A DNA stretch of 34,274 bases, taken from NCBI RefSeq assembly GCF_014696315.1, contig NZ_JACJPX010000082.1:1-34274 (forward strand). Direction: 5' to 3'. This DNA is from Calothrix membranacea FACHB-236. Its GTDB lineage: Bacteria > Cyanobacteriota > Cyanobacteriia > Cyanobacteriales > Nostocaceae. The notes beneath the pieces are model-generated. The model made no database searches, was not told the origin of the DNA, and saw nothing but the letters and a program-made list of their open reading frames with translations. Position 1 is the first letter of the stretch. Each line of letters begins with the position of its first letter. A program made the position numbers and the translations under genes. Of this stretch, positions 15,841 to 32,760 are shown piece after piece.

Positions 15841-16121
15841 TATGTGAGGAGTGTCCGTTGGGATGTTACATAAAGTCAGCCTTTGATTACCCACTTCTAC
15901 CACAGGTGGAATGATTTTCAGTCTTGAGCAATCACAACAATATTTGTTATTTGCACTTTATCAGAGATGAGTCCGAGCAACTAGCCATCTAGAATTTGAG
16001 CTTACAAGTGATAATCGAGCAATGCGATTTAATTTCTCCAATTTTTTGCCTAAGCAGTTAAGTTTTAATAGGGAACAGCAAATAAATAATCAAGCTCTAC
16101 TGATTTGTTTGAGAAATCAAA

Positions 16122-17842: not shown

Positions 17843-17952
17843 TGTTTAGCAATTCTCCTCAGTTTGGATATATATTATCCTGTCCGCTTAGGTACTGACT
17901 GAGGAGTAGGGGAAGTAGGGGGGACAAGGAGACAAGGGGAAATAACTATTAC

Positions 17953-18064
17953 CAATTACCAATTACCAATTACCAATTACCAATTACCAATTACCAATTA
18001 CCAATTACCCATTACCCATTACCAATTACCCATTACCAATTACCCATTACCAATTACCCATTAC
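17953..18064. repeat. Heptanucleotide array CAATTAC/CCATTAC, 16 units
   Basis: Eight CAATTAC units, two CCATTAC units, then alternating CAATTAC and CCATTAC to the end, all in perfect 7-bp register. It fills most of the gap between the glycosyltransferase and the TauE gene, and its last unit provides the stop codon of the TauE gene. Confidence 0.95.
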
Positions 18065-18891
18065 CTCTGCACTATTCTTGCAGAATAATGTTGTGGTACT
18101 TGAGATGATTGTGGGGTATAACGATTTTGTAGTAGAACTAAAGCCCCAATTGTCAGAAGAAAATAGCCAAAGAATTTTTGCAGTTTTTGCGCTGGTACAT
18201 ACTGAGCCAAATACGCCCCAGGTAAGCTTCCTGCACTCGCAGCAATAATAAAGGAAAACATCAAATTCCAATTGAGATCAACATGGCCTAGATAGCCCAA
18301 AAAGCCTGTAACTGAATTAAAAATAATAATCAGCAGTGATGTACCAATCGCTTTTTTCATGGGTACATTTCCTAAGAGTACCAAAGCGGGGACAATAGCA
18401 AATCCACCACCGACACCGACTAACCCAGTTAATACTCCTACGCCTAAGCCTTCAGTCATTAACCACAACCAGCAATACTTACAAACAGGTCGGGGATAAA
18501 ATGCTAGTTGTGGATCTGCGGAGATTGGCTTAGAACTACGGCGAATCATAAACACTGCTGCAAGCAACATCATGATTGCAAACAGCAACATTTGAAAGCT
18601 TTCGGTGACTACTGGAAGTGTAGCAATTTTAGCCCCAATAAATGCACCCAACATTGTGGCGGAACCAAAAATTAATGCCGTTTTGAAGCTGACATTTCTA
18701 GCTCGCCAGTGGGGAATCAATCCCAGTATGCTAACTGTACCGACAATTACCAACGTCATGGCGATCGCAGATTTTGGCGGTACACCCATCACGTAAACTA
18801 AAATTGGCAGCGCCAGCACCGAACCACCACCGCCAATTAAGCCCAAGCTTAACCCAATACAAGCAGCCAATAGATGCCCAATAATCCACAC
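18061..18891 (-). CDS. Sulfite exporter TauE/SafE family membrane protein
   Basis: About 276 residues with roughly eight hydrophobic segments in two related halves. Each half has a Gly-rich loop typical of TauE/SafE (GLSLGLIGGGGSVLALPILV and GVGVLTGLVGVGGGFAIVPALVLL). The family exports sulfite, sulfoacetate or other sulfur anions. Next to a rhodanese and a persulfide dioxygenase, sulfite export is the natural guess. The chosen start is GTG at 18891 (VWIIGHLLAACIGL), preceded by GGAGCGAAGCGAC from a dispersed repeat. An ATG at 18912 would add seven residues (MNSERSD) encoded by that repeat. It is probably transcribed with the two upstream sulfur genes. Confidence 0.88.
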   Translation of the reverse strand: MWIIGHLLAACIGLSLGLIGGGGSVLALPILVYVMGVPPKSAIAMTLVIVGTVSILGLIPHWRARNVSFKTALIFGSATMLGAFIGAKIATLPVVTESFQMLLFAIMMLLAAVFMIRRSSKPISADPQLAFYPRPVCKYCWLWLMTEGLGVGVLTGLVGVGGGFAIVPALVLLGNVPMKKAIGTSLLIIIFNSVTGFLGYLGHVDLNWNLMFSFIIAASAGSLPGAYLAQYVPAQKLQKFFGYFLLTIGALVLLQNRYTPQSSQVPQHYSARIVQR

Positions 18892-18933
18892 GTCGCTTCG
18901 CTCCGAATTCAAAATTCAAAATTCAAAATTAAG
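18892..18933 (-). repeat. 42-bp dispersed repeat supplying the ribosome binding site of the TauE gene
   Basis: Read on the minus strand, three AAAATTC-type heptamers are followed by GGAGCGAAGCGAC, ending exactly at the start codon. It differs at one base from 19588-19629, which ends exactly at the ATG of the rhodanese gene. Confidence 0.85.
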
Positions 18934-18975
18934 ACACCTACAAGGAACTTCCAGAACATAAATTATGCAATTGCT

Positions 18976-19034
18976 TGTAGAGACGCGATTCATCGCGTCT
19001 GATTCATCGCGTCTCAATTCTGATTCATCGCGTC
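18976..19034. repeat. Repeated palindrome arms (GATTCATCGCGTCT)
   Basis: One full AGACGCGATTCATCGCGTCT palindrome is followed by two more right arms (GATTCATCGCGTCT), the last after a short CAATTCT spacer. It lies between the TauE and rhodanese genes and belongs to the same family as 11593 and 16436-16536. Confidence 0.85.
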
Positions 19035-19047
19035 TGCTAAATATCGG

Positions 19048-19587
19048 TCATGAGCCACTGCGTTGGTTATACGGTAGTTTTGCCAGCATCATCCCCAACA
19101 TACAAGTGTCTGTTATGCCCGAATAGAATAACCCTGCTCCCATTACGCCACTGAGAAGTAGAAACCAGGGAGAAACAAATGCTCCTAGTAAAGTACCGAG
19201 TAATACTGAGAAACCTGTAATAATTTGAACTTGCCGCAGTAAGCTAATTGGGGCTTTGCGGTTGATTGTAGTAGGGAAACCTGCTTCTTTCCATGCACCA
19301 ATACCACCACTCAAATGAGTGACAGTTGCAAACCCAGCACTAAACAACTTTTGCGCCGCCATTGCCGAGCGATTTCCGGAGCGACAATAGAGAACAATGC
19401 TACCATCCTGAGGAACCTTGCGCGGATCAAAGCTGGAAAGGGAAACGAGTGTTGCATCTGCGATATGTTCTCCTGCATACTCAGATGGTTCCCGAACATC
19501 AATCAGTGTCACAGCTTTTTGGTCAAGCAGTTGTTTAAGAGTTTGGGCGCTAACAGTTTGTAATTTATTTACACCAGAAGTAGTCAT
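19048..19587 (-). CDS. Rhodanese-DUF2892 membrane sulfurtransferase (YgaP-like)
   Basis: About 179 residues. An N-terminal rhodanese domain (~residues 10-105) has VTLIDVREPSEYAGEHI and the active-site loop LYCRSGNRS, whose Cys would carry the persulfide. A C-terminal DUF2892 region follows with two membrane segments (ITGFSVLLGTLLGAFVSPW and LLLSGVMGAGLFYSGI), as in Escherichia coli YgaP. It is expected to move sulfane sulfur at the inner membrane. It lies between the TauE and persulfide dioxygenase genes on the same strand. ATG at 19587 (MTTSGVNKLQ) is chosen. The 7-residue extension MNLERSD, starting at 19608, comes from the dispersed 42-bp repeat. The last residues (RSGS) and stop overlap a sequence like the insert in the second MITE copy. 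Confidence 0.9.
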   Translation of the reverse strand: MTTSGVNKLQTVSAQTLKQLLDQKAVTLIDVREPSEYAGEHIADATLVSLSSFDPRKVPQDGSIVLYCRSGNRSAMAAQKLFSAGFATVTHLSGGIGAWKEAGFPTTINRKAPISLLRQVQIITGFSVLLGTLLGAFVSPWFLLLSGVMGAGLFYSGITDTCMLGMMLAKLPYNQRSGS

Positions 19588-19629
19588 GTCGCTTCGCTCC
19601 AAATTCAAAATTCAAAATTCAAAATTAAG
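19588..19629 (-). repeat. 42-bp dispersed repeat supplying the ribosome binding site of the rhodanese gene
   Basis: It matches 18892-18933 at 41 of 42 positions and is placed identically, with GGAG nine bases before the ATG at 19587. Confidence 0.85.
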
Positions 19630-19666
19630 TAATGAGAAATAATTAATTACGCAGATTTTTTTGTCT

Positions 19667-20362
19667 CTATGCGGCGGTGCTACCGCAGCGTTGATTGGCT
19701 GGGACGGCTTCCATAATCTTGTTAGGTTGGGGTAGATTGAGATTTGCCATCAATTCCACAAATTCACTGCGGCTACGTCCGGCTAATCGTGGGTTATATT
19801 GCTTCTCTTCACCGATAGTAGAAACTGTATGCCCGCGATAATCGTGACCGGGATAAACTAAGGTTTCATCAGGTAATGTGAACAGCCTTTGCGTTATCGA
19901 GTCATACATCGCTTCTGCATTGCCACTTTGGAAGTCAGTGCGTCCACAACCACGAATTAAAAGCGCATCTCCAGTTAACAAGTGAGTGCTATTAACTAGA
20001 TATGCCATGTGAATATCAGTATGACCAGGAGTTGCGATCGCTTCTATTTTCACACTCGCCAACTCTAAGATTTCTTTATCTTTAATTAAGCGGTCTGCAC
20101 AAGCAACTTGGGCATTCTCCGGTAGGATTCCTTGGCAACCTGTTAACTCACGTAGTTTTGCTGTACCAGTAATATGGTCAGCGTGGATATGAGTTTCTAG
20201 ACAGTATTTGAGAGTTAGCCCGAGTTCATTGAGCAATTTGCGATCGCGTTCTACTTGCTCTATTACCGGATCAACTAAAACAGCAAATTTCGTCGTGCGA
20301 TCGGCAATTAAATACGTATATGTACTAGTTTCTGGGTCAAATAGTTGTCGAAATAACATCAT
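19667..20362 (-). CDS. ETHE1/Blh-like persulfide dioxygenase (MBL fold)
   Basis: A metallo-beta-lactamase-fold enzyme of about 231 residues. Metal-site motifs are visible: THIHADH, the GHTDIH His, the Asp in LLTGDALLIRGCGRTDFQ, and YPGHDY. The GRTDFQ and YPGHDYRGH pattern is typical of ETHE1-type sulfur dioxygenases, which oxidise glutathione persulfide to sulfite, rather than of glyoxalase II or beta-lactamases. The start ATG at 20362 (MMLFRQLFD) is chosen because GGAG lies 6 bases upstream; an in-frame ATG at 20389 lacks that support. A palindrome shared with the SQR promoter region lies about 50 bases upstream. It heads the minus-strand sulfur genes with rhodanese and TauE downstream. Confidence 0.92.
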   Translation of the reverse strand: MMLFRQLFDPETSTYTYLIADRTTKFAVLVDPVIEQVERDRKLLNELGLTLKYCLETHIHADHITGTAKLRELTGCQGILPENAQVACADRLIKDKEILELASVKIEAIATPGHTDIHMAYLVNSTHLLTGDALLIRGCGRTDFQSGNAEAMYDSITQRLFTLPDETLVYPGHDYRGHTVSTIGEEKQYNPRLAGRSRSEFVELMANLNLPQPNKIMEAVPANQRCGSTAA

Positions 20363-20405
20363 AGCTGACTCCAATCTTCTATCTTGCATATATACCAGGT
20401 AATAA

Positions 20406-20433
20406 TACTACTATATAGTAATATAGTAAATTT
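20406..20433. promoter_or_regulatory. Candidate operator upstream of the persulfide dioxygenase
   Basis: Contains the perfect palindrome ACTATATAGT (20410-20419) and, on the minus strand, AAATTTACTA (20433-20424). Both sequences recur in the same order upstream of SQR (20822-20853). Its position 48-57 bases before the start codon fits an operator or promoter core. Binding by the local ArsR protein is inference. Confidence 0.55.
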
Positions 20434-20483
20434 GTCGATATTATCTGCAAAAAGATAATTAAATTCTTTGCTGGTGAGTCGTT

Positions 20484-20714
20484 TTACTCCATATCCTGAC
20501 AGGAACAGCGACGACAGTAATACCGCAATCCCCACAAAGAAGTTAGCAAAACCAAGATTTTTAAGACCAAAGGACTTAACACGAAACTGATAAACAAACT
20601 GATGACAGCGATAGTGCTGGACAACACAACTACAATCTCTTCGTTGCGAAAGTAAAATCTGACAAAGATGGCGAGCAGTGCAACGCTAAATGCCAAGAGC
20701 AAGGATATATACAT
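20484..20714 (-). CDS. Small membrane protein with Cys-rich tail, unknown
   Basis: A 76-residue protein, not recognised. It has two or three hydrophobic helices (YISLLLAFSVALLAIFVRFY, VVVLSSTIAVISLFISFVL, PLVLKILVLLTSLWGL) and a short hydrophilic C-terminus YYCRRCSCQDME with Cys at residues 67, 70 and 72. No strong ribosome binding site is seen. It lies between the persulfide dioxygenase and SQR genes, flanked on both sides by the shared ACTATATAGT palindrome, so a role in sulfur or metal handling is plausible but only inferred from context. Confidence 0.55.
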   Translation of the reverse strand: MYISLLLAFSVALLAIFVRFYFRNEEIVVVLSSTIAVISLFISFVLSPLVLKILVLLTSLWGLRYYCRRCSCQDME

Positions 20715-20821
20715 AAAAATGCACCGTGAAGAGTCGAAAAGGAATTGAAATAGGGAGATGAAGAGAAATTACCAACACCCATTACCCATTACCCATTCTC
20801 CAGTAAAGATTTTTATCATTT

Positions 20822-20858
20822 AAATTTACTAAAACCTTTTACTACTATATAGTTATAT
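20822..20858. promoter_or_regulatory. Candidate operator between the small membrane gene and SQR
   Basis: AAATTTACTA (20822-20831), then TACTACTATATAGTTATAT (20840-20858), which contains the palindrome ACTATATAGT (20844-20853). The same parts occur upstream of the persulfide dioxygenase with shorter spacing. It is about 150 bases before the SQR ATG and 130 bases before the divergent small membrane gene. Confidence 0.55.
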
Positions 20859-21001
20859 CATGAGATGGTGGTTATGAGGTAAAACTGCTGTGGGATGTCA
20901 GTCGCAGACTGCTACAAAGCGGTATCAGTAGGTGAACCTTGTAACTAGTATGAGGAGCTGGTTGACTCTAGCTTGATTAAATAGTTACCGGGGGGAATTT
21001 T

Positions 21002-22306
21002 ATGGCTCGAATTGTAGTGATTGGTGCTGGAATCGGGGGGTTACCCATTACCTACGAACTGCGACGACTACTGCCAAAAGAGCATCAAATTACACTGATT
21101 TCCAATACCCCTAAGTTTACTTTTATTCCTTCCTTACCCTGGGTAGGCTTGAATCTTAAAGAACTTGAGAGTATTCAATTAGATGTAGAAAATCTGCTAG
21201 TAAATCGAGGAATAGATTGGATATTAGGAGGAGTTAGCCAAATTCAGCCAGAATTACAGCAACTCGTTGTCAACGATACTGTAATCTCTTATGACTATGC
21301 AGTGATTGCTACAGGTGCAGAGTTAGCACTAGATGCAATTCCCGGATTGGATCAAGGATATGTGGAGTCGGTGTGTAATCCAGCTCATGCACTCAAAGCT
21401 GCGGAATGCTGGAAACAGTTTCTCAAAAATCCCGGGCCAATAGTAGTGGGTGCAGTACCCGGCGCTAGTTGTTTTGGCCCAGCTTACGAGTTTGCATTAC
21501 TTACAGACTGGCTTTTGCGGCGCTATGGAATACGCGATCGCGCCCCCATTACCTTTGTGACACCAGAACCTTATGTTGGACATTTGGGAATTGGTGGAAT
21601 GGCAAATTCTGCGGAATTGGTAACTAAATTACTCAAACAAAAAGAAATTACAGTACTTGAAAACACCGCTATTAGCCACATTGGGCCAAACACAATTTAC
21701 CTAGCAGATGGGCGTTCTCTACCCTTTGCTTTTAGTATGTTGTTACCGCCATTCCGCGGGCCGCGTTTTTTAAGAGAAGCACCTACTTTAACCGATCCCA
21801 AGGGATTTGTACCTGTATTACCCACTTATCAACATCCTAAATTTCCCTCAATTTATAGCGTTGGGGTAATTACTCAACTCAAACCACCCGAACAAACTCC
21901 CATTCCCATTGGTGTACCCAAGACAGGCCAAATGACCGAAGCAATGGGAATAGCTGTAGCTCACAACATTGCTGTGCAACTAAAAGTAATTTCTGCACCT
22001 TTGGTAACTCCTACCTTAGAAGCACTTTGTTTAGCCGATTTTGGCGACACAGGAATTGCATTTTTAGCAGACCAAGTTTTACCAGATCCAATTACTAAAC
22101 AAAGGCGAAGAGCCATAGCTAAAGAAGGACTTTGGGTAAGTTGGGCTAAGACTGCTTTTGAGAAATTTTTCTTAGCTAAAATGCGTTGGGGTTTAGCAGT
22201 TCCTTGGTTCGAGCATTGGGGATTGAATATGATGGGTTTAGACCTAGTAAAACCCGTTGAAAACTTAGAAGTCTCACAAGATACTCAAACTCTTGTAATT
22301 AAATAG
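21002..22306 (+). CDS. Sulfide:quinone oxidoreductase family flavoprotein
   Basis: A 434-residue FAD-dependent, peripheral-membrane oxidoreductase that should oxidise sulfide to sulfane sulfur and pass electrons to quinone. The N-terminal dinucleotide fold GAGIGGLPITYEL, the ATGAELALDAIPG segment and the second FAD-contact region SVGVI are visible. Cysteines stand at 125 (SVCNPAHA), 157 (GASCFGPAYEF) and 343 (ALCLADFGDTG). This is the three-Cys arrangement seen in SQRs such as that of Acidianus, where two Cys form the catalytic sulfur bridge. The C-terminal amphipathic stretch (FEKFFLAKMRWGLAVPWFE) may bind the membrane. The start is supported by GGGGGG just upstream. Neighbouring dioxygenase, rhodaneses and ArsR agree with the call. 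The exact SQR type is uncertain. Confidence 0.88.
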   Translation: MARIVVIGAGIGGLPITYELRRLLPKEHQITLISNTPKFTFIPSLPWVGLNLKELESIQLDVENLLVNRGIDWILGGVSQIQPELQQLVVNDTVISYDYAVIATGAELALDAIPGLDQGYVESVCNPAHALKAAECWKQFLKNPGPIVVGAVPGASCFGPAYEFALLTDWLLRRYGIRDRAPITFVTPEPYVGHLGIGGMANSAELVTKLLKQKEITVLENTAISHIGPNTIYLADGRSLPFAFSMLLPPFRGPRFLREAPTLTDPKGFVPVLPTYQHPKFPSIYSVGVITQLKPPEQTPIPIGVPKTGQMTEAMGIAVAHNIAVQLKVISAPLVTPTLEALCLADFGDTGIAFLADQVLPDPITKQRRRAIAKEGLWVSWAKTAFEKFFLAKMRWGLAVPWFEHWGLNMMGLDLVKPVENLEVSQDTQTLVIK

Positions 22307-22318
22307 TTAGTGAATATA

Positions 22319-22348
22319 TGGTGCGTTGTGGTGGGCAACAACACACCA
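22319..22348 (+). repeat. Hairpin repeat after SQR
   Basis: TGGTGCGTTGT pairs with ACAACACACCA (one mismatch) around a GGTGGGCA loop, 13 bases after the SQR stop. It lacks a T-run, so it is more likely a dispersed palindrome or RNA-stability element than a strict terminator. Confidence 0.55.
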
Positions 22349-22436
22349 TCAAGAATTGTAAATTTTACCCAAAATTTTCTCTGTTAAATCTGGATTTTTT
22401 ATCAAAAATTATTAACCAGAAAGAGGAGAAATCAAT

Positions 22437-22889
22437 ATGAAAAGGATAATCCCAACAATCGCTACTATTTCGATTTTGAGTTTACTTCCAGTACCAGTTG
22501 TAATAGCTCAATCAGGTACAGGAGGATGCCCTTCTAGGGCTACTTCTTCCTCAGGAATGTATGACCCAAAAACAGTAGAAACCATAACAGGTCAAGTAAT
22601 TTCTATAGACAACACTGCTTCTCCTAGAGGAATGTCTGGTGGCTTGCATTTAAAAGTCAAAACTCTAAAAGAAGAGATTCCAGTACATTTGGGGCCAGTA
22701 TGGTACATCAACCAACAAAACATCCAAATTAAACTTCAAGACCAAATTGAAGTTAAAGGTTCAAGAATAACCTTTGCTGGACAGCCCACAATCATTGCTG
22801 CCCAAATTAAAAAAGACAACCAAATTCTGAATTTACGTTCTGATGATGGTCTACCAGTTTGGGCGGGATGGAGAAGAAACCAGAGGTAA
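22437..22889 (+). CDS. Secreted OB-fold-like protein, unknown function
   Basis: A 150-residue protein with a Sec signal peptide (MKRIIPTIATISILSLLPVP...VIAQ). The mature part has a repeated beta-rich pattern: YDPKTVETITGQVISI, LHLKVKTLKEEIPVHLGP, QIEVKGSRITFAGQP, and the C-terminal PVWAGWRR signature. This resembles a family of small periplasmic OB-like proteins found in cyanobacteria and proteobacteria, often labelled DNA-binding or magnetosome-like without evidence. A Cys at about residue 31 (GGCPSR) follows the signal peptide. AGAGGAG lies upstream at good spacing. Its place between SQR and a heme-type membrane protein hints at a periplasmic redox or sulfur role, which is inference. Confidence 0.75.
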   Translation: MKRIIPTIATISILSLLPVPVVIAQSGTGGCPSRATSSSGMYDPKTVETITGQVISIDNTASPRGMSGGLHLKVKTLKEEIPVHLGPVWYINQQNIQIKLQDQIEVKGSRITFAGQPTIIAAQIKKDNQILNLRSDDGLPVWAGWRRNQR

Positions 22890-22893
22890 GCCA

Positions 22894-23184
22894 ATGAACA
22901 GCGACGAGCACAATAGTCAGCTAAAAAATTACTTTCGCTTAGTAGATGTTTTGGCATTAATTACTTGCTGGAGTTTGGCATTTTTGACAGGGTTTTTATT
23001 GTGGTTTGCCCCTATAGAAAAAGATGTGGATAGAGTCGCTTGGTTTTTCGGTTTATTGAAACATGAATGGGGCAAACTTCATTTATTCATGGGTGTAATT
23101 GCTTTGTGTATCACAACGATTCATCTTGTAATTTATCAAAAAGTTTTACAAAGTTTGAATCATCGTCACAATTTATGGGAATAA
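22894..23184 (+). CDS. DUF4405-like small membrane protein
   Basis: About 96 residues with two clear membrane helices (VDVLALITCWSLAFLTGFLLW and LFMGVIALCITTIHLVIY). His residues occur in the inter-helix region and second helix (HEWGKLHLF and TTIHLVI), spaced as in DUF4405/cytochrome b561-like proteins that may bind heme. ATG at 22894 is chosen because AGAGG lies 7 bases upstream and a frame opening at 22843 overlaps the preceding gene by 47 bases. It follows the OB-like gene by four bases, implying one operon, and could hand electrons to or from quinones. Heme binding is not proven by sequence. Confidence 0.75.
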   Translation: MNSDEHNSQLKNYFRLVDVLALITCWSLAFLTGFLLWFAPIEKDVDRVAWFFGLLKHEWGKLHLFMGVIALCITTIHLVIYQKVLQSLNHRHNLWE

Positions 23185-23200
23185 TCTTTATTAAAGATGT

Positions 23201-23494
23201 ATGGAAATTGCACTCAACCCCAATGAATTAGAACTACTAGCACGCCGCTTTAAAGTTCTTGCAGAACCCACAAGATTGCAGATTTTAGGGGCATTATGCA
23301 ATCAAGAGCAGACCGTACAGGAAATATGCGATCGCACTGGTCTTAAACAAGGAAACGTCTCTAGACACTTACAACTGATGAAAGATGCAGGAGTGTTAAC
23401 TTGTCGCCGCGAGGGTTCATGGCGCTACTACCGTGTGATCGATACCGAACTTTTAGCCATGTGCAAACAAGTTTTCCGCAACGTTATGAGGTGA
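23201..23494 (+). CDS. ArsR-family winged-helix transcriptional regulator
   Basis: A 97-residue dimeric repressor-type protein with the typical order: FKVLAEPTRLQILGAL, the recognition helix region TGLKQGNVSRHLQLMKDAGV, and the wing RREGSWRYYRV. The canonical ArsR metal motif ELCVCD is absent. Cysteines are at 33, 43, 68 and 88. Two well separated Cys (33 near helix 2 and 88 in the C-terminal helix) recall the arrangement in persulfide sensors of the SqrR/BigR type, but I cannot align them exactly. Its place in an SQR operon supports a sulfide or persulfide sensor. The likely target is the ACTATATAGT palindrome. Confidence 0.88.
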   Translation: MEIALNPNELELLARRFKVLAEPTRLQILGALCNQEQTVQEICDRTGLKQGNVSRHLQLMKDAGVLTCRREGSWRYYRVIDTELLAMCKQVFRNVMR

Positions 23495-23497
23495 TTC

Positions 23498-23581
23498 GTG
23501 ATACCTTGCCACATCCGAAGAATTTTCTCTTGGCTATTACTACTTGGCAGCTTAGTTTTACTGATTTGGGGCAATAAGTAA
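23498..23581 (+). CDS. Possible 27-residue single-helix membrane peptide
   Basis: A short frame starting with GTG, whose likely ribosome binding site GAGG overlaps the stop region of the ArsR gene, reads (V/M)IPCHIRRIFSWLLLLGSL followed by VLLIWGNK. It has a basic N-terminus with one Cys and one clear membrane helix. Coupled start placement and composition favour a real small protein, but there is no family to compare with and the helix could arise by chance. Confidence 0.4.
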   Translation: MIPCHIRRIFSWLLLLGSLVLLIWGNK

Positions 23582-23672
23582 CTAGATTTGTCATTTGTCA
23601 TTTGGTGTTTGTCATTTGGTGTTTGTCCCAATTACCAATTACCCAATCCCCAGTCCCCAATCCCTAATCCCT
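23582..23672. repeat. Short tandem repeats upstream of the SCP-2 gene
   Basis: Two copies of a 14-bp TGTCATTTGGTGTT unit, then CAATTAC and CCCCAAT-type heptamers. It is non-coding and of the same heptamer style as elsewhere in the window. Confidence 0.6.
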
Positions 23673-23685
23673 TGGAGTTAAAAAC

Positions 23686-24081
23686 ATGACAGAATTATTT
23701 TCCCCAGAATGGATGCAAGCTTACGCAGAGAAATGGAATCAAGAACCTGAGTTAGCAGATGCGCTCAAACAAATTCATTTCAATTCCGTAATTGGTTATG
23801 GCTTTGAAAATGAGTCAGAACCTAGAGGTGTACTCACCATTGTGGATGGAAAAGCTATTGAAGCAAGTGCTTACAATGGGCAAAAACTTAACTGGGATCT
23901 GCGTGCTGACAAGGATAATTGGCAACAGTGGGTAGCTAAGGGCTTAAACATGATGGGTTTGAGCATGGCTTATATGTCGCGCAAGCTGCAATTCCGTGTA
24001 GGAGATTATCTCGCCATGATTAAAGACCCCCGTATGGCAGGGCCATTTATCAAATCTTTCTCGGTTATGGGTAGGGTATGA
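23686..24081 (+). CDS. SCP-2-like lipid-binding domain protein
   Basis: A 131-residue single-domain protein resembling the sterol carrier protein 2 superfamily: an N-terminal helix (SPEWMQAYAEKWNQEPELAD), a central strand set (GVLTIVDGKAIEA, WDLRADKDNWQQW) and a C-terminal helical part (LQFRVGDYLAMIKDP). The fold binds hydrophobic ligands; substrate and role here are unknown. GGAG lies 8 bases before the ATG. It lies between the ArsR regulator and a rhodanese, and is probably part of the same sulfur operon. Confidence 0.75.
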   Translation: MTELFSPEWMQAYAEKWNQEPELADALKQIHFNSVIGYGFENESEPRGVLTIVDGKAIEASAYNGQKLNWDLRADKDNWQQWVAKGLNMMGLSMAYMSRKLQFRVGDYLAMIKDPRMAGPFIKSFSVMGRV

Positions 24082-24269
24082 AAAGGGCATAGGGCATGGG
24101 AAATACAGATTTTCATGCTTGGTTGTGCCAAAACCTGCCGTGAATGGCTGATGAGATGAACTCTACTCTCACTCTGTGCCTCTGCGTCTCTGCGTGAAAA
24201 AATTAGGTGAAATAGGCGCAAGAGAATCACTCACAATCCAAAATTCAAAATCTAAAATCCAAAATTGTC
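24082..24269. other. Spacer with dispersed repeats
   Basis: Holds a CTCTGCGTCTCTGCGTGA-type dispersed repeat (about 24180-24197), also recognisable near 26103 and 31243. AAAATTC/AAAATCC heptamers follow and end three bases before the ATG of the rhodanese gene. Confidence 0.6.
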
Positions 24270-24617
24270 ATGAAACGTACTCTCAAAGAAAACGAACAAA
24301 ATCAAACTCAACCTTTCAGCTTAGGTGCTAGACAACTGCAATCGCGACAAGCACAATTCACAATCATTGATGCGCGCAGTTGGATGGAGTACGTTCTTGG
24401 GCATATTCCCGGAGCACGTTACCTCAGTCAAAGCAGTATCCTAAAGGAAATTCCTAAAGACCAACTAATAGTAGTCACTTGCCTGTCAGGACACCGCAGT
24501 TTATCAACCGCAAATTGGTTAATAGAGCAAGGCTACAGTAAGGTTTACAACTTACAAGGCGGCATCATGACATGGCAACAGTTAGGCTATCCTCTGCAAC
24601 GAGGAAACAATCCCTAG
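24270..24617 (+). CDS. Single-domain rhodanese
   Basis: A 115-residue cytosolic sulfurtransferase. One rhodanese domain has FTIIDARSWMEYVLGHIPGA, the active-site loop VVTCLSGHRS (persulfide-forming Cys) and the closing NLQGGIMTWQQLGYPL. It would accept sulfane sulfur from SQR-derived persulfide. No strong ribosome binding site is visible because an AAAATTC-type repeat occupies the leader. It is the second rhodanese of the island. Confidence 0.9.
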   Translation: MKRTLKENEQNQTQPFSLGARQLQSRQAQFTIIDARSWMEYVLGHIPGARYLSQSSILKEIPKDQLIVVTCLSGHRSLSTANWLIEQGYSKVYNLQGGIMTWQQLGYPLQRGNNP

Positions 24618-24657
24618 CTATTTGATGCTGAATTAATGGGAGAGCAAAATCAATCTT

Positions 24658-26091
24658 ATGTTTAACGATCAATCGTCCGTCAACTTGGAACCAACTATTA
24701 AAGACATTACCGCAGAACCAGCCCCAGAACTACAACCCAAAAAACCCAAGCGGCTGCGGATGATTGCCTTGATTAGTGTTTTTGCGATCGCATTTGGGGG
24801 TGTGGCTTGGTTCTGGTTATTGCGTCATCCTTCCGAATCTACGGAAACTGCAACGGTGCATCTTGAACCTCTAGAGGTGGAAACTACAACGGCTGCTCAA
24901 GAATCTATAGCGGGTGACAGCAGTCTCACTGGTACTATCGAATCTGTGGAAACTGTCACCACTACCAGCCGGATTCAAGGACAAATTAAAAATCTCCCAG
25001 TGGCAGAAGGTGACAGAGTTAAAGCCGGTCAAGTGCTGGCTATTATCGATGTTAAAGATATCCAAGCCCAAGGGAATCAGGCATTAGCAGCCATCGCCCA
25101 AGCGCAAGCGGGTGTGACAGTGGCGGCGGCGGCGCAAACGCAAGCAATGGCTAGCAAAACTCAGGCAGAAGCCCAGTTAAATCAAGCTGAGGCGGGACAA
25201 CAACAAGCTGAAGCTCAATTACAAGAAGCAGCAGCACAATTAGCTGATGCCCAGTTAAATCAACGCCGCATGACAATGCTGCAAAAAGATGGTGCAGTTA
25301 GTCAATCACAGTTGGATCAGGCAAATACACAGGTAGCATTAATTCAAGCACGGATTAAACAAGCCAAGGCGGGAATTGAGCAAGCCAACCGGGGAATTGA
25401 TCGCGCCAAAGCTGGCGTACAACAAGCCAGTTCCCAAGTCAAACAAGCCGAAGCTGGAGTAGAACAAGCACGTTCCCAAGTCCAACAAGCCAAAGCTGGA
25501 CAACAGCAAACCCTCGCTAACTTAAACTATGGCACTGTCACCGCACCCTTTGCAGGCGTAATTACCAAAAAACATACAGAAGTCGGTGCGATCGCAGGGC
25601 CAGGACAGCCGATAGTTACATTAGAAAGCACCAATCGACTACGTTTAAGTGTCGCAGTGCCAGAATCCTTAATTACCTTAGTCAGACTGGGAGACGAAGT
25701 GACAGTACAGCTAGATACTGTTAACCGTTCCGTCACTGGTCACGTGCGGCAAATTGTACCTTCCGCTAACTTAAATTCACGTAGTTTTACTGTGAAAGTC
25801 GCTCTAGATAATTCCTATAAATTAATGCCAGGAATGTTCGGCCGCTTAGAACTACCGCGAGAAACTCGCACAGTCATGATGATTCCGCAAAATGCTGTAT
25901 TTAAGCGGGGTCAATTAGCAGGAGTTTATGTAATTGCTGCTAATAATACTGCTCAATTACGCTGGGTGAAAACCGGGAAAGCGCAAGATAACAAACTAGA
26001 AATTGTCTCCGGGTTAGAAACAGGCGATCGCATCATTACTAGCAATGTTGAAGAACTGCGTGATGGACAGCAAGTTGTCGCTAATAAATAA
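24658..26091 (+). CDS. RND efflux periplasmic adaptor (membrane fusion protein)
   Basis: A 477-residue HlyD/AcrA-type adaptor linking an inner-membrane RND pump to an outer-membrane channel. A cytosolic Pro/Lys-rich N-terminus is followed by one membrane anchor (MIALISVFAIAFGGVAWFWL). Then comes a lipoyl half-motif (SRIQGQIKNLPVAEGDRVKAG) and an unusually long Ala/Gln-rich coiled-coil hairpin (~residues 140-290, repeated QAKAG/QAEAG units). The second lipoyl half (TVTAPFAGVITKK) and beta-barrel and membrane-proximal domains follow. No lipobox was seen, so it is anchored by the helix. The pump gene follows. No TolC-like gene is in the window. Confidence 0.92.
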   Translation: MFNDQSSVNLEPTIKDITAEPAPELQPKKPKRLRMIALISVFAIAFGGVAWFWLLRHPSESTETATVHLEPLEVETTTAAQESIAGDSSLTGTIESVETVTTTSRIQGQIKNLPVAEGDRVKAGQVLAIIDVKDIQAQGNQALAAIAQAQAGVTVAAAAQTQAMASKTQAEAQLNQAEAGQQQAEAQLQEAAAQLADAQLNQRRMTMLQKDGAVSQSQLDQANTQVALIQARIKQAKAGIEQANRGIDRAKAGVQQASSQVKQAEAGVEQARSQVQQAKAGQQQTLANLNYGTVTAPFAGVITKKHTEVGAIAGPGQPIVTLESTNRLRLSVAVPESLITLVRLGDEVTVQLDTVNRSVTGHVRQIVPSANLNSRSFTVKVALDNSYKLMPGMFGRLELPRETRTVMMIPQNAVFKRGQLAGVYVIAANNTAQLRWVKTGKAQDNKLEIVSGLETGDRIITSNVEELRDGQQVVANK

Positions 26092-26230
26092 AGAGTTTTG
26101 TCTCACGCATAGGCGCAGAGACGCAAAGCATTTTTCTCAATAAATAACTCTCTTCTATAACTTCTTTCTTCGTGTTCTTCCTGCCTTCGCGGTTCGTTTT
26201 ATCTCCCCATCTTACAAAACTGCATATATT
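26092..26230. other. Spacer between adaptor and pump genes
   Basis: Contains a GGCGCAGAGACGCAAAGCA-type dispersed repeat (about 26111-26129) and no gene. No clear promoter is seen; the two genes are probably cotranscribed. Confidence 0.5.
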
Positions 26231-29200
26231 ATGAACGGTAAAAGTTCAGAACCAAAAATACAAAATCAATCTAAACTTGGTTTTGTTGGCAAACTAGCCA
26301 AAAAATTTATTGACTCTAAATTAACTCCCCTAATTATTTTAGTTTCATTATTATTAGGCATTGGGGCAACGATAATTCTACCTCGCGAAGAAGAACCGCA
26401 AATTACAGTCCCAATGGCAGATGTATTCGTGCAAATGCCCGGTGCAACTGCCAAGGAGGTAGAACAGCGGGTTACCTTCCCAATGGAGAAGTTAATTAAA
26501 GAATTACCCGGTGTCGAGTATGTTTATTCAACTTCTACCCCTGGTTCATCTGTCGCCATTGTCCGGTTTTATGTAGGGCAAAAAACCGAAGATGCTATTG
26601 TTCAACTTTATAACAAGCTATACGCTAACTTCGATAAAATTCCGGCTGGTGTTTCTCAGCCATTAATTAAATCTCGCGCCATTGATGATGTCCCGATTCT
26701 GACACTCACTTTGTGGAGTAATCAAGCTAACTCTACCGATTTACGGCAAATTGCTGCTCAATTAGATGAGCAAATTAAGCAGGTGCCAGATGTATCGGAA
26801 ACAACTTTAATTGGCGGTCAAAAACGACAGTTACGCATCGAAGTTGACCCTGCAAGATTGAATGCTTTCGGTTTAACTCCTTTAGATATTTCCCAAGCAT
26901 TACAGTTACAAAATACCGAACTAGCAAGCGGTGCTTTGAGCCAAAATAATCAATCATTCTTAATTAGAACGCAAAGCTTTATTCGCTCGGCAGAAGATGC
27001 ACAAAATTTAGTTGTGAGTGTGGCGAATAATCAACCTGTATATTTGCGGGATGTCGCTACTGTTAGCGATGGTGCAGAAGAACCGACTAGTTATGTATTT
27101 TTCGGACAAGGGAAGACAGAGGGTAAACATGGTGCAAAACAAGCAGCGATGGGTGAAGCAGATGCAGTCACAATTGCGATCGCAAAACGTCCAGGTGCAA
27201 ATGCAATTCAAGTTTCCCATCATGTATTGCACAAGTTAAAGGAAATTCAACATAATTACATACCTAACTATGTACAGCTAACAGTCACACGAGATTATGG
27301 GGAAACCGCCGCTGAACGTTCTAACGAGTTGTTAGTCCATATGGGTATCGCGGTAATTTCCGTTACTGTCCTCATGTGGTTTGCACTAGGTAAAAAAGAG
27401 GCAATGGTGGTGGCAGTTTCCATCCCTGTTACCTTAGCCTTGACCCTGGCTAGTTTTGTATTTTATGGCTTTACCCTTAACCGTGTAACATTTTTTGCGT
27501 TAATTTTCTCCATTGGGATTTTAGTTGATGATGCGATCGTGGTTGTAGAAAACGTTGGTCGTCATTTGCAACTTCCCGAAAACAAAACCCGAATGCAGTT
27601 ATCGCACAATCGCCAAAAGACGCTACAAAAAATTGTTCTCGAAGCTGTAGACGAAGTAGGAAATCCGACAATTTTGGCGACTTTAACTGTAATTGCGGCG
27701 ATTTTGCCAATGGCATTTGTCGGTGGCTTGATGGGGCCTTATATGCGCCCAATTCCTTTGGGTGCATCTGCGGCGATGATTTTCTCGGCTTTAGTGGCGT
27801 TTATTGTTGTCCCTTGGGCAACGATGCGCTTTTTTGGTAACTACAATAGTCACAATCACGGACATGAAGAGGAAGATTATCTCAGCCGCCTTTATCGCCG
27901 CTTCATGGGGCCGTTAATTGCGCGTCGTCAATGGGGAAATGCTTTTATTGCGGGAACACTGGCGTTATTAATCGCAGCTTTAGGATTAGCGGGATTTCGG
28001 TTAGTAATCCTGAAAATGTTACCTTACGACAACAAAAGCGAATTGCAGATAGTCCTCAATATGCCAGAAGGGACAACCCTAGAGCAGACGGCTAGGGTAA
28101 CAAAAGAAATGGGGCAATATTTGACTACAGTACCAGAAGTCACGAACTATCAAAGTTATGTTGGTACTGCGTCGCCTTACAACTTCAATGGCTTGGTGCG
28201 ACATTACTTTTTACGTTCTGGTGCGAATATTGCAGATATGCAGGTGAACTTTTTACCAAAAGGCGATCGCAACAGGCAAAGCCATGATATTGCTAAAGCT
28301 ATCCGCCCCCACCTTAAGCAAATTGCTGATAAGTATAACGGTCGTGTGCAAGTAGCAGAAATACCCCCAGGGCCACCAGTGTTGCAAACTTTGGTTACCG
28401 AAGTCTACGGTGCAGATTATGAAAAACAAATTGAATTAGCCCGACAAATCCGCGAAATTTACAAGCATACTGCCGATATTGTGGATGTGGATTGGTACAT
28501 GGAATCACCACAAACAGAATATCATTTGGTAATTGACCGAGAAAAAGCCGCACTCAATGGTATTAGTCCAGCGCAAATTTCCCAAGTGTTACAAATTGCT
28601 CTTTCTGGTCAAAATGTGGGTTTACTCCATGATGCCAACTCCCGCGAAGATGTCGCCATTAACTTACGATTAAATCAAGCAAATCGCACCAGTTTAGGAG
28701 ACCTAAAATCCCTAAAAATGAAGGGAGTAAATGGTAATTTAGTAGCTGTAAGTGATTTAATTCAAACTGAAACCACCACAGCAGACCATAGTATTTATCA
28801 TAAAAACTTAAAGCCTGTAGTTTATGTTACGGCTGATGTTGCTGGGAAAGTTGAGAGTGCAGTGTATGCCATGCTTAACGTGCAATCTAAAATAGACAAA
28901 CTCTCTCATACTAAGGGCTATAACATTACTACCTACTTTACCGAACAACCCCCAACCACAGAAATATTCGGGATTAAATGGGATGGTGAATGGCACGTTA
29001 CCTTTGAAGTATTCCGCGATTTAGGAATTGCTTTTGCTGTAGTGTTGGTGCTAATTTATGCCCTCGTTGTCGGTTGGTTTCAATCCTTTATTACTCCCTT
29101 AGTAATTATGGCAGCAATTCCTTTTTCCCTAGTAGGAATTATGCCAGCTCACTGGTTAATGGGAGCCTTTTTCAGCGCTACCTCCATGATTGGCTTTATT

Positions 29201-29533
29201 GCGGGAGCCGGAATTGTAGTGCGAAATTCAATTATTTTAGTAGATTTTATTGAATTGCGCCTGAAAGAAGGAATACCTTTGGAAGAGGCAGTAATTGATG
29301 CTGGTGCAGTGCGGTTTCGTCCAATGTTACTCACCGCAGCAGCAGTAATTGTTGGTTCAGCAATTATTTTAACTGACCCCATCTTCCAAGGATTAGCAAT
29401 TTCCTTAATGGCTGGTGAAGTCGCCTCTTTATTATTATCGCGTTCAGCCGTCCCCATTTTATATTACAAAGTCTGGCGAGGTAAAAAATCAAAACCAGAA
29501 GCTATCCCTATTCCCTCTGCAATTGTCAATTAA
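26231..29533 (+). CDS. RND efflux permease (AcrB/HAE-like)
   Basis: An 1100-residue inner-membrane proton-driven pump. It starts with one membrane helix ([20 protein letters not shown]), followed by a large periplasmic porter domain, and has the 12-helix RND layout in two halves. The fourth-helix region has [16 protein letters not shown] with the double Asp typical of HAE/AcrB-type proton relay. The second half has [21 protein letters not shown]. Substrate cannot be told. A His/Glu-rich loop ([10 protein letters not shown], ~residues 538-547) sits between the membrane bundle halves. Location after two sulfur-transfer genes suggests extrusion of a sulfur or electrophilic product, or simply a neighbouring resistance pump. 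Confidence 0.93.
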
Positions 29534-30552: not shown

Positions 30553-31155
30553 TTACTGCCAAATGTAAATCAGAATAAACAACACAATCCAGATCACATC
30601 GACAAAGTGCCAGAATAATGAAGTGGCATTGACACCAAAGTGACCAGTATCATAATTACCTGGATTAAAAGAGCGTACCAGAATAATCAACTGCAATATA
30701 ATTCCGGTGAGTACGTGCAAACCGTGAAAGCCTGTGAGCAAATAGAACATCCCACCAAAAACGCCAGAAGTAAAACCAAAGGCGAGGCTGTGCCATTCAA
30801 GCGCCTGTCCTAATAAAAAGTAGCTACCCATAGCCATTGTAGCTGCAAGAAACAGACGAAATTTCAGTAAATCGTGATGTTGCAGAGCGCGTTCTGCCAG
30901 GTAAATCACAAAACTACTGGAAACCAAAATCACTGTATTGATTGCGGGGTCTTTAATTTCTAATCCCGAGACACCAGTCGGTAGCCAGTTAGGAGTGGTG
31001 ATTTTGTAAACAATATATCCAGCGAAAAAGCTTAGGAAAATAACACTTTCTGATAGCAAGAAGACGATGAAGCCAAACATCTTATTGCCTTCTTCGTCGT
31101 GGGTATGTTCACCACTTATGTGATGCGACTCCCCAGAAGTGAGATAACTATCCAT
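30553..31155 (-). CDS. ctaE: Cytochrome c oxidase subunit III
   Basis: A 200-residue integral membrane protein with five hydrophobic segments. COX3 motifs are visible: FGFIVFLLSESVIFLSFFAGY, GFHGLHVLTGIILQL and SLFWHFVDVIWIVLFILIY. It is a structural subunit of an aa3-type heme-copper oxidase. AAGGAG lies 10 bases before the ATG. It lies downstream of ctaD on the same strand across a 177-bp repeat-filled gap. The gene looks intact although ctaD does not. Confidence 0.93.
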   Translation of the reverse strand: MDSYLTSGESHHISGEHTHDEEGNKMFGFIVFLLSESVIFLSFFAGYIVYKITTPNWLPTGVSGLEIKDPAINTVILVSSSFVIYLAERALQHHDLLKFRLFLAATMAMGSYFLLGQALEWHSLAFGFTSGVFGGMFYLLTGFHGLHVLTGIILQLIILVRSFNPGNYDTGHFGVNATSLFWHFVDVIWIVLFILIYIWQ

Positions 31156-31242
31156 TGCGGAAATTCTCCTTAACCAAATTCAGTAATGAGTGCTGAGTGA
31201 AGATAAAGTAGTCAGCACCTTGATTGCAGAGGGTAATAAACG

Positions 31243-31318
31243 AACCGCAGAGGACGCGGAGGACTCAGAGATATGAAACTCTGCGTTACTCAGCGTTAAC
31301 CCTGCTTCCTCTGCGGTT
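31243..31318. repeat. Inverted repeat in the ctaD-ctaE gap
   Basis: AACCGCAGAGGA (31243-31254) is repeated in perfect inverse orientation as TCCTCTGCGGTT (31307-31318), enclosing related CTCTGCGTTACTCAGCG sequence. It is a dispersed-repeat family member inserted inside the operon. Confidence 0.75.
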
Positions 31319-31332
31319 AAAAATTACTTGCC

Positions 31333-32760
31333 TCAAGCGAACGGCTTGTAGGCGGAATCAGATGGGGCCTTAATGTTAGCAGTCAATGGTTCAGACTTAC
31401 CGTAGCCGTAGGGTTCGCTGATGACGATAGGGATTTCTTCAAAGTTTTCTACTGGTGGTGGTGAAGCAACCAACCATTCCAAACCAATAGCGCGCCAAGG
31501 ATTAGCAGGTGCTTTCTGACCATGCATCCAGGAAACTACCATATTGAAAATGAAGGGTAAGGTAGACATTCCTAAGAGGAATGAGCCAAGACTAGCAACA
31601 ATATTCCAGAATTCATACTCTGGTGCGTAGGAAGAAATCCGGCGTAACATCCCTTGCAATCCTAATGGGTGCATAGGCAAGAAGTTGAGGTTAGTACCAA
31701 TGAATGTTAACCAAAAGTGCAATTTACCCCAGCTTTCGTAGTACATCCGTCCAGTCATTTTGGGGAACCAGTGGTAGATGGCTGCATACAAGCCCATTGT
31801 CACTGTTCCGAATAGGACATAGTGGAAGTGACCAACTACGAAATAGGTGTTATTGACGTGCACATCCACAGGTACTGAGGAAAGCATAATGCCAACGATA
31901 CCTGCGAAGACAAACATGATCAACGCACCCAAGGCAAATAGCATGGGTGTAGTTAAGCGCATCTTTCCACCCCAAATTGTTGCTACCCAAGCAAACACCT
32001 TAATCCCAGTTGGTACAGATACCAACATTGTGGTCACCATGAACAGCATCCGCATCCAAGCTGGTGTACCACTGACATACAAATGGTGTACCCAAACAAT
32101 GGCGCTAACGACTGCAATTAACAGAGAGGAAATCGCAACTACTTTGTAACCAAATAAAGGTTTGCGGCTATAAACAGGGAAGATTTCGGAGAAGATGCCG
32201 AAGATGGGCAGAATGATCACATAAACGGCAGGGTGGGAGTAGAACCAGAAGTAGTGCTGGAACATAACTGGGTTCCCGCCTTTGCTGGGGTCAAAAAAGG
32301 CTGTGCCAGCAGTGAGGTCTAGTAGCAACATGACTGCACCAGCTGTCAAAGCAGGTAGACCAAAAAGTTGGATAATTTGGGCGCTAAACACTGCCCAAAC
32401 GAAGAGGGGCATTTTAAAGAAGCCCATACCTGGTGCCCGCATCTTGACGATGGTGGTGACAAAGTTAACTGCCCCCATAATTGAGGAGACACCAGATATT
32501 GCTACTGCCAATAACCAGACAACTTGACCATTAATTAAGTGACCTGTGGGGTTTTGCAAGCTAACTGGGGGATAAGCCCACCAACCAGCTTGGGCTGGCC
32601 CACCTGGAACAAAGAAGCTGGCCATTAACAGAATCCCGACTACTGGCACCATCCAAAAAGCGACGGCGTTGAGGCGGGGAAATGCCATGTCTCGTGCCCC
32701 AATCATCAAGGGCACTAAATAGTTAGCAAAACCAACTAAAGATAAGCTTACAAGGGACAA
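31333..32760 (-). pseudogene. ctaD: Cytochrome c oxidase subunit I, 5'-truncated
   Basis: 475 residues against about 550-575 for a normal cyanobacterial CtaD. Homology begins abruptly at GFANYLVPLMIGARDMAFPR. The first helix and the second helix with the HG-x-x-M His that ligates low-spin heme a are missing. The rest is well kept: the CuB/cross-link site SHPAVYV (H176, Y180), VWVHH (H225, H226), and VVGHFHYV (H311, H313 for hemes a3 and a). The frame opens at a TTG directly after an in-frame TGA. No ctaC lies upstream. The body looks like a full-length gene cut at its 5' end, so I call it a probable pseudogene. A functional shortened form is unlikely because one heme ligand is lost. Confidence 0.75.

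Follow-up and report, generated by a model that had tools for sequence, protein, structure and literature searches.

Introduction

In sulfur-oxidizing bacteria, elemental sulfur accumulates outside the cytoplasm; we know of no exporter that has been identified for it. Here we analyze a sulfide island of the cyanobacterium Calothrix membranacea FACHB-236, in which the gene of a sulfide:quinone oxidoreductase (SQR) is accompanied by genes for a small protein of predicted SCP2 fold, a periplasmic adaptor (membrane fusion protein, MFP) and a resistance-nodulation-division (RND) permease. The island occupies 18061-29533 of contig NZ_JACJPX010000082.1 (assembly GCF_014696315.1), the whole stretch of which, 34,274 nucleotides, we call the window; the genome assembly has 164 contigs that total 8.8 Mb, and its near relatives include Nostoc carneum NIES-2107 and Nostoc linckia FACHB-104. 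It consists of two divergent arms: a left arm of four minus-strand genes (TauE, rhodanese with transmembrane domain, ETHE1 and a 76-aa membrane protein) and a right arm of eight plus-strand genes (SQR, a secreted 150-aa protein, DUF4405, ArsR, the SCP2-like protein, a rhodanese, MFP and the RND permease).

As far as the accessible portions of the sources go, parts of this arrangement have been described before. The BigR/Blh operon of Xylella and Agrobacterium combines a DUF442-ETHE1 dioxygenase, a TauE-related transporter and BigR (PMC5823870). The left arm of the island has the same functions with an ArsR-family regulator nearby, but it encodes ETHE1 and rhodanese separately; the window adds SQR, SCP2 and RND, and its ArsR scores too low to count as BigR (46 bits against the equivalog model NF040642, cut-off 155). 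In Azospira suillum PS, the operon Dsui_3440-3443 encodes an unknown protein, an efflux pump, an SQR and an RND MFP; it was highly expressed under sulfide-oxidizing conditions and picked by Bar-seq and RNA-seq (PMC5358917). As in the window, an SQR is thus combined with an RND pump and an MFP, but in another phylum, with no carrier described in the accessible part of the report and with the pumps taken as metal efflux. For cyanobacteria, sqr-arsR loci and psbA near sqr have been described (Grim and Dick, 2016; PMC5061849); Geitlerinema PCC 9228 has a type I sqr with arsR downstream, resembling the window, but the multidrug efflux pump mentioned there lies upstream of the type VI sqr2 and not of sqr1.

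Given the published Azospira operon, a link between RND and SQR is not new; what appears new is the SCP2-RND unit together with its distribution. The unit was undescribed among the best 10-20 open-access PMC matches listed for RND and sulfur globules, SCP2 and sulfur oxidation, SQR and RND, and sulfur export. The main text of PMC5061849 contains no RND or sterol term, the same holds for those of PMC5776472, PMC8002359, PMC12466478 and PMC8651085, and the accessible portions of PMC11237559, PMC7042703 and PMC5823870 hold nothing on an SCP2-RND unit. RND-family genes of Allochromatium raised on pyrite were considered as support and set aside; they are listed with a CzcA-family pump in the accessible part of PMC11267869, and so give none.

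Results

The genes for the SCP2-like protein (23686..24081, plus strand), MFP (24658..26091, plus strand) and RND permease (26231..29533, plus strand) form a linked unit. SQR was present in 35 of 386 genomes of a phylum-wide sample and in 25 of 217 genomes of the family, with 8 in common, giving 52 genomes and as many neighborhoods (the window plus 51 regions; in 5 of the 52, the sequence extends less than 7 kb from SQR in one direction). By score thresholds, ArsR was found in 35 of these loci, MFP, RND and a second rhodanese in 14 each, SCP2 in 13, ETHE1 and the rhodanese with transmembrane domain in 12 each, and TauE in 11. MFP and RND accompanied SCP2 in 13/13 SCP2-positive SQR loci (8 genus codes; 5 of the 13 from one genus), as opposed to 1/39 SCP2-negative loci (L085). 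Searched for alone, SCP2 was found in 6 of the 386 phylum genomes, each time less than 2 kb from SQR, and in 8 of the 217 family genomes, all eight SQR-positive. Gene order varies across lineages (L048, L050, L110, L119, L147), so the linkage outlives rearrangement. The first-pass annotation had proposed a wider system that includes the pump, to be checked by comparing SQR neighborhoods; 13 of the 52 loci do keep the pump and SCP2 together with SQR, while these partners are missing from most, 39 being without SCP2. As a separate observation, locus L100 (G472) holds two SCP2 copies about 9.6 kb apart, one following SQR and the other heading MFP-RND on the opposite strand.

The set extends beyond cyanobacteria: SCP2, MFP and RND are linked in many Proteobacteria. 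In a scan with one genome per species, the best 80 of 400 SCP2 relatives comprised 30 cyanobacterial loci, with SQR in 28, MFP in 28 and RND in 24, and 50 proteobacterial loci, with MFP near SCP2 in 47 and RND in 46. The latter belong mainly to Magnetococcales and Gammaproteobacteria, several of them named for sulfur oxidizers. Taking the best 80 favors pump-linked copies (46/50, against 31/71 with MFP directly downstream in an even sample). The even sample, drawn from the class to which a Thiodiazotropha genome belongs, had SCP2 in 69 of 321 genomes; among 80 regions (from 87 matches), 38 had an MFP- or RND-like gene, 33 had neither and 9 were too short, and MFP immediately followed SCP2 on its strand in 31 regions, 30 of which had RND as well. 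The pump is thus a frequent, not the sole, context of SCP2 in this gammaproteobacterial sample. One link to SQR was seen outside cyanobacteria, in the proteobacterial locus L240, where SCP2 is followed after 57 bp by a type-I-like SQR, and the other strand carries MFP and RND nearby. Other neighbors of the unit include ParA-like ATPases (20/50 loci), DUF4412-type proteins (18/50 loci) and, in Thiodiazotropha, secreted proteins with repeated YRFRP/WRPL motifs that follow the RND gene about 6-8 kb downstream of SCP2 (L154, L131, L141).

In the SCP2 tree (131 columns, many open forks), the cyanobacterial copies formed one group (29 rows, SH-aLRT 98), which sits among proteobacterial copies, mostly pump-linked, with a support of only 83. 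Pump linkage was clustered on this tree, yet about 17 changes are needed to explain it. In a FastTree phylogeny of RND proteins, for which 24 of the 72 proteobacterial rows were retained, the SCP2-adjacent permeases fell into a single subfamily composed of one proteobacterial and two cyanobacterial clades; mean identity was 35.5-41% between these clades and 22-25% to other RNDs, and two other RNDs of the window genome (E up to 1e-60) were 27-28% identical. The single cyanobacterial SCP2 group holds loci of both cyanobacterial RND clades, which argues for function and not for hitchhiking.

The predicted structure of the 131-aa protein, which has no conserved cysteine, matches solved SCP2 folds, with 10-23% identity to 2cx7, 1wfr (Thermus TT1886) and UbiJ (6h6n-6h6p). 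Pfam and PDB sequence searches were uninformative, so that the protein is placed by predicted structure alone: the Pfam SCP2 model matched none of 63 family members, and the sole Pfam match was EpuA in one member (E 0.017). The label "SCP-2" given at first pass is therefore right with regard to the predicted fold, though not as a Pfam assignment. The MFP scored 232 bits against TIGR01730 (cut-off 94.9), and in the permease ACR_tran (550 bits) spans 26-1081. The permease remained below the cut-offs of both the CusA/CzcA heavy-metal model TIGR00914 (323.5 vs. 701 bits) and the multidrug model RND_permease_2, NF033617 (450.5 vs. 1250 bits). It carries a VDD motif, which we take to mark hydrophobe pumps; the pattern was found in the window RND clade and the proteobacterial rows, and in 0/8 rows of the second cyanobacterial clade.

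Genomes with the SCP2-like protein were rich in sulfur-oxidation genes. Between 40 SCP2-positive and 40 SCP2-negative gammaproteobacterial genomes, the sulfur globule protein PF17228 was found in 27 and 2, respectively (24/37 positives without three genomes seen before), soxB in 35 and 11, and dsrA (E up to 1e-40) in 34 and 9, three of the positives resting on fragments. PF17228 also exceeded its cut-off in 34 of the 49 genomes holding the 50 proteobacterial loci, as opposed to 0/14 controls. In eight genomes, a PF17228 match above the cut-off follows SCP2 on its strand at a distance of 7.5-8.1 kb: G691, G642, G760, G744 and L151, where both are on one contig, and, from matching coordinates, L122, L124 and L138.

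The SQR of the window (21002..22306, plus strand) scored 320 bits against the solved enzyme 3sz0 (residues 2-418 of 434) and 315 bits against 3hyv (residues 3-410), both of which we take to be type I. In the alignment, C125, C157 and C343 pair with cysteines of solved SQR that presumably have a catalytic role, and by these comparisons the protein is type-I-like. It is the single full-length SQR of this kind in the genome, four further matches spanning only about the first 110 residues. The ArsR/SmtB-family regulator (23201..23494, plus strand; NF033788, 86.5 bits) was inspected for the cysteine pair that BigR/SqrR sulfide sensors have in alpha2 and alpha5; it carries C33, C43, C68 and C88, and C68 and C88 are kept in 16/16 relatives of its type in a by-eye alignment.

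A palindrome with core ACTATATAGT, a candidate operator, occurs in the window before ETHE1 (20406..20423, about 21 bp from the gene) and before SQR (20840..20857, 149 bp from the gene) only; a search for the 14-mer with up to 2 mismatches returned four overlapping matches at these two sites, against 0.17 expected. The 52 loci, 1.03 Mb in all, contained 26 exact copies of ACTATATAGT, 23 of which lay at most 350 bp before SQR, ETHE1 or ArsR, a zone that makes up 7.4% of bases in loci that are kin. A copy preceded SQR in 14/52 loci. For 30 letter-permuted palindromes, ACTATATAGT included, the mean was 1.9 copies and the next highest count 10. The exact core was absent from the short loci of the four other ArsR matches in the window genome (72, 64, 47 and 40% identical to a second-type ArsR of L078). 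RexT was considered as a reader of ACTATATAGT and is unlikely, given that its reported site, ATTCG-N15-CGAAT, differs (PMC8960804, accessible portion).

The first-pass gene assignments (SQR, ETHE1-like protein, two rhodaneses, TauE, ArsR, RND adaptor and pump, SCP-2 protein and small genes) are confirmed as to the presence of the genes. In the left arm, all on the minus strand, these are a TauE/SafE permease, putatively a sulfite/sulfonate exporter (18061..18912; TauE, 170.6 bits), a rhodanese fused to a YgaP-like transmembrane domain (19048..19608; Rhodanese, 67 bits; YgaP-like_TM, 30 bits) and an ETHE1-type persulfide dioxygenase (19667..20389). Judged from sequence scores, the ETHE1 product is nearer to solved persulfide dioxygenases (279 bits for 4ysb, its best PDB match; 240 bits for ETHE1, 4chl) than to glyoxalase II (78 bits for hydroxyacylglutathione hydrolase, 1qh3). 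Across the 52 SQR loci, these three genes were gained or lost independently of the pump; they represent a separate, labile module that has the palindrome in common with SQR. Four loci of the window's genus, all with SQR to RND kept, illustrate various states of this arm: ETHE1 split over two frames and TauE not seen (L069), remnants only (L070), ETHE1 and the rhodanese with transmembrane domain lacking (L071), and the whole arm gone (L072).

The remaining genes are a single-domain rhodanese in the right arm (24270..24617, plus strand; 62 bits) and three small genes that had been proposed as parts of one system. Such a role is not borne out by their distribution, as DUF4405 occurs in 5 of the 52 SQR loci and the OB-like protein and the small membrane gene occur in 4 each, mostly in the window's genus; they are lineage-restricted. 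The OB-like protein is the secreted 150-aa protein (22437..22889, plus strand); its AlphaFold model, built from four sequences, had a pLDDT of 35, it scored 21 bits against the MamS model (cut-off 200), and a homologue lies between MFP and SCP2 in Acaryochloris (L110). The DUF4405 membrane protein (22894..23184, plus strand; 33 bits) recurs in L096 and L104. The 76-aa membrane protein (20484..20714, minus strand; Cys 67, 70 and 72) had no Pfam match, and all four loci with it belong to the window's genus.

Around the island, short ATTACCAATTACC-like repeats run through 17950-18060, between a glycosyltransferase gene and TauE; a very large CheB-CheR-PAS-histidine kinase-receiver fusion is encoded upstream (11629-15903), and cytochrome oxidase subunit III and I genes adjoin the other side (30553-32760). 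Elsewhere among the 52 loci, psbA-like (D1) and Rieske-like genes lie near SQR in 16 and 15, respectively (L040, L041, L042, L076, L078 and others), with and without the pump, consistent with the published proximity of psbA and sqr (PMC5061849, accessible portion). Genes for a pair of secreted proteins, of which one has a heme-like CxxCH motif, stand beside SQR in 15 and 17 loci (for example L045 10931-12193, L055 and L062). Both sets of neighbors are absent from the window.

Discussion

For the SCP2-MFP-RND unit, our results point to the export of a hydrophobic sulfide-oxidation product as the most likely function. We tentatively favor, at somewhat less than even confidence, reading the right arm (SQR, ArsR, SCP2-like protein, rhodanese, MFP and RND) as a sulfide-oxidation module with its own exporter. 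The direction of transport, the cargo, its hand-over and induction by sulfide we infer from gene content, the predicted SCP2 fold, the linkage in two phyla, the RND subfamily, the association with sulfur-oxidation genes and the shared motif. SQR would convert sulfide to polysulfide or zero-valent sulfur while reducing plastoquinone. The SCP2-fold protein would hold the hydrophobic product non-covalently, because it has no conserved cysteine, and pass it from the cytosol or the inner membrane to MFP-RND; together with an outer-membrane channel whose gene lies elsewhere, this pump would move it to the periplasm or the outside. The left arm (ETHE1, rhodanese with transmembrane domain, TauE) would provide an alternative outlet, in which persulfide is burnt to sulfite and then exported.

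That the pump handles sulfane sulfur, as proposed at first pass, is plausible, and the cargo may be elemental sulfur. The likeliest cargo would be zero-valent sulfur, such as S8, long polysulfanes or a sulfur-loaded lipid or thiol, with the unit serving globule loading in sulfur-globule-forming bacteria and sulfur disposal in cyanobacteria. A stricter version, in which the SCP2-like protein and MFP-RND are a dedicated zero-valent sulfur exporter and the SCP2 cavity solubilizes S8 or polysulfane for the pump, seems to us rather unlikely as it stands; the pump would then expel sulfur in sulfide-oxidizing cyanobacteria, and in purple and symbiotic sulfur bacteria it would build periplasmic globules.

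Several observations weigh against a module with its own sulfur exporter. The active site of SQR is usually assigned to the periplasmic face, so that it is less evident why a carrier in the cytosol would take up its product, and lipids are the usual ligands of SCP2 folds. The unit is missing from 39/52 cyanobacterial SQR loci, and our co-occurrence counts ignore kinship. MFP and RND are missing near 33 of the 71 readable gammaproteobacterial SCP2 copies, so the carrier has other contexts. PF17228 lies within 10 kb of SCP2 in only 5/40 positives, most matches being elsewhere, and one of the five, G674, has it 1 kb upstream on the other strand. In the accessible portion of the Azospira report, deletion of the operon left the rate of perchlorate-dependent sulfide oxidation unchanged (PMC5358917).

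The unit could instead handle a lipid or isoprenoid, such as a quinone, a hopanoid or a sulfur-adducted quinone, in membrane repair or remodeling of cells that run SQR or make globules. We consider this unlikely, given the strong association of the unit with sulfur-globule, soxB and dsrA genes; that no lipid- or quinone-biosynthesis gene was noticed among recurrent neighbors is a weak point, as most clusters are unannotated. Removal of toxic metals, metal sulfides, thiol adducts or general toxins of sulfidic habitats, with SQR as a neighbor in a habitat island, is less probable again. It draws on the Azospira authors' interpretation of sulfide-induced RND pumps as metal-sulfide efflux (PMC5358917) and on the arsenic genes that accompany a second cyanobacterial sqr (PMC5061849), both from accessible portions. 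The permease, however, reached only 323.5 of the 701 bits set for CusA/CzcA, and it carries the VDD motif of hydrophobe pumps, a pattern that the second cyanobacterial clade did not match; a conserved SCP2-fold partner would also be unexpected for metal efflux.

We give the least credence, as improbable, to a habitat or gene-transfer island in which SQR and the pump are functionally uncoupled. Its patchy occurrence (6/386 cyanobacterial genomes) and the gain and loss of the left arm within the window's genus would fit such an island, but the SCP2-RND association spans two phyla, two RND clades of one subfamily stand beside one cyanobacterial SCP2 group, gene order varies, and SQR adjoins SCP2 in L240.

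The carrier-pump unit is a concrete candidate for a sulfur exporter, located beside SQR in cyanobacteria and near globule-protein genes in some Proteobacteria. If this function is true, it would explain how elemental sulfur exits the cell or enters globules, and SCP2-fold proteins would gain a possible role as pump feeders.

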